A stretch of 64,000 nt of DNA from Sulfuriferula sp. AH1. Lineage in GTDB: Bacteria; Pseudomonadota; Gammaproteobacteria; Burkholderiales; Sulfuriferulaceae. Below the pieces are notes generated by a model. It had not been told where the DNA came from. It saw only the letters and a list, made by a program, of their open reading frames with translations, and did no database searches. The translations under genes and the position numbers were made by a program. How positions within the stretch are numbered: position 1 is the stretch's first letter; each line of letters starts with the position of its first letter. Shown one piece after another: positions 62,204-64,000 of this stretch. Location: contig NZ_CP021138.1 of NCBI RefSeq assembly GCF_002162035.1, positions 1,612,001 to 1,676,000 of the forward strand. The letters run 5' to 3'.

Positions 62204-62526
62204 TTTATCGATACAAATCGCTATAATTGTTAAGTATTTGTTACCGTGGTTAGTCGCGGTTATATTCGCAAGTTGCAATGCATTGTCATTTTGAATTTAA
62301 CCGGCCCGCTCGTTATATTAGAATAATCTAATATAACGATAAATTTATATATCATATAGATGTCAGATATCCAAGCTTCACAATACCCATCCAAGCCTGA
62401 CACATCATCAGGCAATTAACATTTTTATCTGCATGGCGATTAAATAATCTGATTATTTGTTAAGCAATAGCTATACACTCTGACTAATTCATCTTTACCA
62501 TTACCTCAGTGCTGAAGGAGCATATT
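62204..62526. other. Intergenic region ahead of tsdBA
   Basis: These 323 bases are AT-rich and hold no gene I can support. The notable element is a perfect inverted repeat at 62310-62339. No promoter is clear enough to call. Confidence 0.5.
62310..62339. promoter_or_regulatory. Perfect 12-base inverted repeat upstream of tsdBA (operator-like)
   Basis: TCGTTATATTAG (62310-62321) and CTAATATAACGA (62328-62339) are exact reverse complements separated by AATAAT. The AT-rich palindrome is about 190 bases before the tsdB start. It has the size of an operator for a dimeric winged-helix regulator such as the ArsR/SmtB type, but no regulator gene is nearby. A DNA hairpin or a weak terminator after the methyltransferase gene are alternatives. 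Confidence 0.5.
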
Positions 62527-63168
62527 TTGAAGCATATCTTACTAGCCGCCATGACCTGCATCCCGCTCATGGCTCAAGCAGACGATGCTGCCCGGACCAT
62601 TACCACCCAAGGCAATAAGCAAGGCGCCACGGCATGCATGGCATGTCACGGTGCTGACGGCGGCGGCACAGCGGCAGCCGGATTTCCTCGCCTGGCCGGT
62701 CTCAACGCAGCTTATATCGCTCGCCAATTGCACGATTTCCGCTCTGGCAAACGCAATAATCCGTTAATGCAACCTATCGCCAAAGCGTTGTCAGATACCG
62801 AGATCCAGCAAGTCGCAGCCTACTATGCCGCAATGCCTGCTCCCGCCGCTGCTCCGGCCGGGGGCGATCCTGCCTTGCTGCGCAAGGGCGAAGCACTTGC
62901 CACTACCGGCGACTGGAATCATGAAATCCCGGCATGTTTCCAATGCCACGGCCCCGCTGGCAAAGGCATAGAACCTGACTTCCCCGCTATCACCGGTCAA
63001 TCTGCAGTGTACATTTCCAACCAGATCGCAGCCTGGAAATCCGGCGCCCGCGCCAATGACCCTGTCGGTTTGATGAAATCTGTGGCCACCAAGTTATCGG
63101 CAGATCAGGTAAAGGCCGTTTCGACCTATCTTGCCAATCACCCCTTAACCAATGGAAATCAACAATGA
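62527..63168 (+). CDS. tsdB: Diheme cytochrome c, TsdB-like electron acceptor
   Basis: The 213-residue precursor has a signal peptide (about 1-18, ending MAQA) and two cytochrome c domains, with heme motifs CMACH (37-41) and CFQCH (137-141). Candidate Met ligands are Met81 and Met183. This is the cytochrome c4-like build of TsdB, the partner that takes electrons from thiosulfate dehydrogenase TsdA. The next gene, TsdA, overlaps it by 4 bases. The start is TTG 62527, seven bases after AAGGAG; a GTG at 62509 lies in front of that site and is rejected. Confidence 0.87.
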   Translation: MKHILLAAMTCIPLMAQADDAARTITTQGNKQGATACMACHGADGGGTAAAGFPRLAGLNAAYIARQLHDFRSGKRNNPLMQPIAKALSDTEIQQVAAYYAAMPAPAAAPAGGDPALLRKGEALATTGDWNHEIPACFQCHGPAGKGIEPDFPAITGQSAVYISNQIAAWKSGARANDPVGLMKSVATKLSADQVKAVSTYLANHPLTNGNQQ

Positions 63169-64000
63169 AGAACACAATCGCAACTGCCATGGCTTTGGCA
63201 TTGTTCGCCATGTCCGGCATGACCGCTGCCGCCAGCAAAACCACAACGCCTGAACCAGTCAAAGCGCCGGTCTTCACCCCGCCGAGTGAAGACAGCATCC
63301 CCAACGATGAGTTTGGTCAGATCGTGCGTCAAGGCAAAAACATTTTCGACGACACTCAGCATTACGCGAAACAATATGTAGGCAATAGCCTGAACTGCGT
63401 AAACTGCCACCTCGCTTCCGGTCGCAAGCCCGACTCTGCGCCGTTATGGGGAGCCTATGTGCGTTACCCGGCTTATCGCGCCAAGAACAAAAAGGTGAAT
63501 ACGTTTGAGCAAAGAATCCAGGGTTGCTTCAAATTCAGCATGAACGGTAAAGCGCCTTCGGCCGACAGCCCGGAAATGATCGCATTGGTAACCTATTCGT
63601 ACTGGATGGCAAACGGCGCACCGGTTGGCGCGAAACTTGATGGCGCAGGTTATAAGGCATTGCCGAAACCGGCCATCGCTCCCGATTTTAATCGGGGCAA
63701 AGCCATTTACGCTGCCAGCTGCCAGATTTGCCATGGCGCAGATGGAGAAGGCAAGAAAGTTGACGGTAAAACCATATTCCCGCCATTATGGGGATCCGAA
63801 TCCTTTAACTGGGGCGCAGGCATGCATCAGATAAACAATGCCGCAGCCTTTATCAAGGCCAACATGCCGCTGTCCAAAGGCAATACGCTTACTGATCAGG
63901 AGGCATGGGATGTCGCCACATTCGTCATGTCACACGAGCGCCCGCAAGATCCGCGTTTCAAGGGCAGCCTTGAAGAAACCAAGAAGGAATTCCACAACGA
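63165..64000 (+). CDS. tsdA: Thiosulfate dehydrogenase TsdA, 3' end outside window
   Basis: TsdA couples two thiosulfates to tetrathionate in the periplasm and can work in reverse. The visible 278 residues start with a signal peptide (about 1-23) and hold two heme motifs, CVNCH (78-82) and CQICH (186-190). The segments LASGRKPDSAPLWGAYVRYP, RIQGCFKFSMNGKAP and WGSESFNWGAGMHQI are TsdA hallmarks. Cys121 would be the unusual axial ligand of the active-site heme. At the second heme, Asn233-Met234 stands where the Allochromatium enzyme has Lys-Met. The gene overlaps tsdB (ATGA) and is open at the end. Confidence 0.93.
   Translation, partial: MKNTIATAMALALFAMSGMTAAASKTTTPEPVKAPVFTPPSEDSIPNDEFGQIVRQGKNIFDDTQHYAKQYVGNSLNCVNCHLASGRKPDSAPLWGAYVRYPAYRAKNKKVNTFEQRIQGCFKFSMNGKAPSADSPEMIALVTYSYWMANGAPVGAKLDGAGYKALPKPAIAPDFNRGKAIYAASCQICHGADGEGKKVDGKTIFPPLWGSESFNWGAGMHQINNAAAFIKANMPLSKGNTLTDQEAWDVATFVMSHERPQDPRFKGSLEETKKEFHN

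Follow-up and report, generated by a model that had tools for sequence, protein, structure and literature searches.

A tsdBA operon at the edge of a Sulfuriferula sp. AH1 sequence window, and the differently organised tsd operons of its genome

The window analysed here, a stretch of 64,000 nucleotides from Sulfuriferula sp. AH1, closes on two overlapping genes encoding diheme cytochromes, which form an ordinary tsdBA operon. The features of the locus, in window coordinates, are as follows.

62515..62520, plus strand: AAGGAG, the ribosome-binding site of tsdB, read from the sequence; L010 and L178 keep both it and the TTG start
62527..63168, plus strand: tsdB, periplasmic c4-type diheme cytochrome, presumed electron acceptor of TsdA; in the PDB it is closest to the TsdB half of 5lo9
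62635..62649, plus strand: TsdB heme motif CMACH, from the sequence
62935..62949, plus strand: TsdB heme motif CFQCH, from the sequence
63165..64000, plus strand: tsdA, thiosulfate dehydrogenase / tetrathionate reductase, running 55 bases beyond the window to the equivalent of position 64055
63396..63410, plus strand: TsdA heme 1 motif CVNCH (His82), the His kept in 80/80 and 46/46 relatives
63525..63527, plus strand: TsdA Cys121, predicted heme 1 distal ligand and catalytic residue, aligned to the A. vinosum cysteine
63720..63734, plus strand: TsdA heme 2 motif CQICH (His190), the His kept in 80/80 and 46/46 relatives
63861..63866, plus strand: TsdA Asn233-Met234, Met234 being the predicted heme 2 distal ligand; Met in 80/80 and 46/46 relatives, Asn in 79/80 and 43/46

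The TTG codon of tsdB (213 residues) lies 6 nt after AAGGAG, an arrangement kept in two other Sulfuriferula genomes (L010 and L178), and the start of tsdA overlaps the tsdB stop as ATGA. The window covers 278 of the 296 tsdA codons; the final 18 residues lie outside it, and the remainder of the gene, through 64055, is likewise TsdA rather than a different enzyme. Each protein carries two CxxCH motifs, those of TsdA at residues 78 and 186, and a signal-like stretch is discernible by eye at the TsdA N-terminus. No conserved regulatory element was found upstream of tsdB, as the three upstream regions compared align poorly except at the ribosome site and start, and promoter-like and terminator-like sites are no more frequent than in shuffled sequence. 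The operon is flanked by a methyltransferase and RNase R, with no oxidase or other sulfur gene adjoining; this placement recurs in L010, while in G414 the methyltransferase is kept and RNase R was not seen within the stretch read. Among the closest loci (the best 80 of 373 relatives), tsdB lies upstream of tsdA in at least 74 of 80.

The assignment rests on both sequence and fold, and the match to TsdB-TsdA is not a chance one. TsdA aligns with the TsdBA fusion of M. purpuratum (5lo9) at E 6.7e-84 and with A. vinosum TsdA (4v2k/4wq7) at about 1e-56, and the same entries are the best solved-structure matches of its predicted fold (mean pLDDT 82.5; rmsd about 2 A to 5lo9 and 4v2k over 230-250 columns). 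TsdB, a c4-type diheme cytochrome encoded beside tsdA, has its best match in the TsdB half of 5lo9 (E 1.3e-45), followed by cytochromes c4. With two heme motifs, a Cys ligand at heme 1 accompanied by the active-site Arg and Ser, a Met at heme 2 and the expected fold, the second protein belongs to TsdA; a SoxA identity was rejected, its score of 65.6 bits falling below the family cut-off of 110. The initial annotation, which had named the pair TsdB and TsdA from the overlapping genes, the heme motifs and Cys121 in RIQGCF, was therefore sound in each of these particulars.

It had further pointed to Asn-Met at the second heme where the Allochromatium enzyme has Lys-Met. The heme 2 site reads FIKANMPL in AH1 TsdA, FIKHKMPL in wild-type A. 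vinosum and FIAANMPL in M. purpuratum, and because of this alignment we regard Asn233-Met234 as correctly placed. To gauge how common the pair is, two surveys were compared: set A (L010-L089), the best 80 of 373 relatives and hence close ones, and set B, all 46 distinct non-own proteins at E 1e-20 or better from a 398-genome phylum sample (one duplicate row, L125/L094, dropped), in which 43 genomes, AH1 included, hold a TsdA at that threshold. Cys121, Arg117, both heme His and Met234 are present in every member of both sets (80/80 and 46/46), and Ser125, matching A. vinosum Ser127, is invariant in 20/20 aligned rows; active-site roles have been described for A. vinosum Arg119 and Ser127 (PMC4423706). 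The residue before the Met is Asn in 79 members of set A, with a single Asp (L039), and in 43 of set B, the others being one Ser (L092), one Ala (L099) and one Lys (L112); all four TsdA of AH1 have Asn-Met. From these counts, Asn-Met is the family state and Lys-Met the exception, so that the pair is not the notable departure it had been taken for, and indeed the conservation of this Asn has already been published (PMC9237845). With Asn233 in place, the window enzyme is not a ligand-switch TsdA of the A. vinosum Lys/Met type; among the 46 sampled proteins only L112 has Lys, and in our quick tree it joins A. vinosum TsdA at a weakly supported, open fork (81) with long branches. The gene identity, the ligand residues and their conservation are established here.

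It is tempting to read the direction of catalysis from this pair, and the earlier suggestion was that Asn-Met leaves the direction open, given that C. jejuni TsdA also has Asn there and performs well as a tetrathionate reductase. The latter point agrees with published work (Asn254-Met255 in a reductase-biased enzyme); the pair itself, however, carries no information on direction. M. purpuratum TsdBA is biased to oxidation and C. jejuni TsdA to reduction (PMC5146829), and in our alignment the oxidation-biased enzyme is also Asn-Met. The C. jejuni N254K variant does not gain A. vinosum behaviour; in A. vinosum K208N the residual reductase activity is unchanged from the wild type, and from this the authors of that work conclude that directionality is not caused by lysine ligation (PMC6879331). 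With Asn almost everywhere in the family and the mutants at odds with such a rule, the heme 2 pair cannot decide direction, and it was rejected as a marker on the strength of both surveys and the published swaps. A second candidate was the Lys two residues before the Asn, since the same K-x-N-M pattern occurs in C. jejuni TsdA, a reductase (Lys252, Asn254, Met255), and a Lys252 Gly variant of that enzyme shifts toward oxidation. This too was rejected, as the oxidative A. vinosum enzyme has Lys there, M. purpuratum has Ala, and the position varies in both surveys. The TsdA tree, a quick one with long branches that leaves A. vinosum TsdA uncertainly placed, puts the window TsdA and the oxidation-biased M. 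purpuratum TsdBA in one broad clade (a 96-row fork, support 95, drawn open), the latter on a long branch.

The host offers some guidance. AH1 grows on thiosulfate and forms sulfate, acid and elemental sulfur (PMC12285272), which bears out the earlier hint that the organism uses reduced sulfur, and its genome holds a partial Sox cluster in which soxX, soxY, soxZ, soxA and soxB each score above the family cut-off. Both the physiology of the host and the gene context point to thiosulfate oxidation as the likeliest role of the window operon, TsdB being the presumed acceptor. From characterised relatives we infer the chemistry, the heme 2 ligation, TsdB as acceptor and the direction; by the same analogy the window TsdA probably interconverts thiosulfate and tetrathionate, and it is probably reversible in vitro. 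In the mechanism we propose, TsdA would couple two thiosulfates into tetrathionate at the His82/Cys121 heme, with Cys121 taking up thiosulfate, and two electrons would pass from heme 1 to the His190/Met234 heme 2 and thence to TsdB, which would deliver them to a terminal oxidase. Asn233 would be simply the family-typical neighbour of the Met ligand, and a Lys-to-Met ligand switch is not to be expected. It has been proposed that TsdB may donate electrons to cbb3 oxidases (PMC9237845), a view that a paralogous AH1 tsdBA directly joined to cbb3-like oxidase genes (described below) fits.

The alternative that fares best, albeit an unlikely one, is that the window TsdA serves as a cellular tetrathionate reductase in the manner of C. 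jejuni, forming thiosulfate, under low oxygen, from tetrathionate that the other TsdA copies have made. Four TsdA copies would allow such a division of labour, the window operon is without an oxidase link, and its K-x-N-M heme 2 pattern is common to C. jejuni; however, this pattern is the family norm and is present in an oxidation-biased enzyme, the known acceptor TsdB is encoded alongside, and AH1 did not grow on tetrathionate in one study's media, nor was its anaerobic growth demonstrated there (PMC12285272). It is less probable still that the four AH1 enzymes are redundant and the window operon (tsdBA1) has no role of its own since, although all four are full length with a complete ligand set, they are just 42-61% identical and occupy three distinct regions of the tree, and copy 1 keeps its methyltransferase neighbour in two further Sulfuriferula genomes. 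We accordingly hold, with good confidence, to an ordinary AH1 tsdBA operon in which TsdA would oxidise thiosulfate to tetrathionate with TsdB as its acceptor.

The AH1 genome comprises a chromosome of 2,877,007 bases and a plasmid of 39,138 bases (PMC5552976). Within it, four full TsdA are encoded in three operons, of different ancestry in the quick tree; the two beyond the window are these.

L007:3593-9904 (C1:2107592-2113903), minus strand: a tsdB2-tsdA2-ccoN-like-ccoO/P-like operon and a second SoxB; locus position C1:2112339
L008:5738-15396 (C1:1127737-1137395): SoxB-like protein, tsdB3, tsdA3, tsdA4, SulP permease, DsrE-like protein, second SoxB-like protein and sulfur-transport proteins; locus position C1:1130657

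The reading frames of the first, from tsdB2 through the ccoO/P-like gene, overlap, and the second SoxB follows about 230 bases on, scoring 784 bits, above the SoxB cut-off of 550. The CcoN-like protein is divergent, at 154 against a ccoN cut-off of 583, far below it. In alignment it nevertheless keeps the residues of 3mk7 that presumably serve as copper and heme histidines and active-site tyrosine. It occurs in 3 of 18 family genomes, adjoining tsdA2 in each; in G399 two stretches about 2.3 kb apart make up the O/P part, and soxB2 was not seen within the 14 kb read, and in G402 the contig end falls inside the O/P part. At E 1e-90 the protein was found in 2 of 399 genomes of the order, both of the same genus and one of them AH1 itself, and at 1e-70 in AH1 alone among 369 genomes of the class, so that neither sample yielded it outside the genus at these thresholds. 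TsdA2, for its part, is nested within a group of Burkholderiaceae enzymes (28 rows, support 96, quick tree), and its place among these enzymes suggests transfer: the TsdA2 lineage may have been acquired and then coupled to the oxidase. It is conceivable, at somewhat short of even chances in our estimation, that this second module is a dedicated thiosulfate:O2 electron-transfer unit, in which TsdA2 would form tetrathionate and TsdB2 would pass electrons directly to the divergent cbb3-like oxidase. SoxB2 may act on the product of TsdA2, by analogy with the TsdA and SoxB route to sulfur proposed for Erythrobacter flavus (PMC7608252).

In the L008 cluster, both SoxB-like proteins score below the SoxB cut-off. 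The cluster is wholly conserved in G399, and the tandem tsdA3-tsdA4 arrangement recurs in 5 of 18 family genomes. Five sampled TsdA of the IRECFV/IRECFA type (L113, L115, L116, L117 and L130) each adjoin a SulP-family permease, as tsdA4 does here.

Other observations were made along the way. Three proteins (L125:5985-8108, L184:362-2488 and L185:4406-6451), each about 680-710 residues long and bearing five CxxCH motifs, combine a three-heme part at the N-terminus with a complete TsdA domain that has the Cys and Asn-Met; they are possibly membrane- or quinone-linked TsdA fusions. In 9 of 18 family genomes there are reading frames of 680-758 residues that match TsdA. Elsewhere in AH1, L009:5361-8035 (minus strand; near C1:803333) encodes a 139-residue monoheme SoxA/TsdA-like cytochrome with Cys kept at the ligand position, neighboured by a Tat-signal phosphoesterase and a di-heme peroxidase-like protein, and these genes may constitute a small Sox-like set. 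The AH1 plasmid contig C2 carries an 8.5 kb mercury-resistance transposon region (L176:761-9233) that is 99.9% identical to one on the Enterobacter hormaechei plasmid NZ_CP059713.

As regards earlier work, the main text of the AH1 study contains no tsdA, and the only thiosulfate dehydrogenase that appears there is doxDA of strain GW1 (PMC12285272). A separate gene survey includes TsdA and discusses AH1, and one of its figures may therefore show AH1 tsdA (PMC6397845); another paper reports tsdA in fewer than 80% of its Sulfuriferula genomes (PMC11294248). No report of a tsdBA-cbb3 operon came up in the literature listings searched. The present analysis finds four tsdA genes in a bacterium of mine waste for which the published pathway, in the main text of the AH1 study, gives none, and these genes bear on how such bacteria make tetrathionate in mine water. 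It also removes a tempting but wrong shortcut, in that Asn or Lys beside the heme 2 Met is unusable as a marker of TsdA direction. The part most worth following is the set of three differently organised tsd operons in the surrounding genome. Its tsdBA-oxidase member would allow the proposed electron transfer from TsdB to cbb3 oxidases to be tested directly by genetics. Should our reading of that operon hold, tsdBA1, the second module and the tandem tsdA3-tsdA4 would represent three differently wired thiosulfate dehydrogenases in one small genome.

Among the characterised systems, we know of no TsdB gene adjacent to tsdA in either A. vinosum or C. jejuni. The A. vinosum enzyme (4v2k, 4wq7) resembles that of AH1 in its fold, its Cys ligand and the Met at heme 2, but has Lys-Met and a ligand switch in place of Asn-Met, and its Arg109 corresponds to a Lys in AH1 TsdA (the position matched by eye on the alignment). 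Its partner is a HiPIP, whereas C. jejuni 81116 TsdA, which has the same Lys-x-Asn-Met pattern and is expected to have His/Met ligation at heme 2, differs in that it acts physiologically as a tetrathionate reductase and is partnered by a monoheme cytochrome c (PMC6879331). The tsdBA genes of Thiomonas, Sideroxydans and Halomonas are alike in having tsdB directly upstream of tsdA and Asn at the Lys position (PMC9237845), and differ in host and neighbouring genes. M. purpuratum TsdBA (5lo9), the top fold match, shares the TsdB and TsdA domains, the Cys-ligated heme 1 and the Asn-Met heme 2; it differs in being fused into a single chain where AH1 has two overlapping genes, and in having Ala rather than Lys two residues before the Asn.
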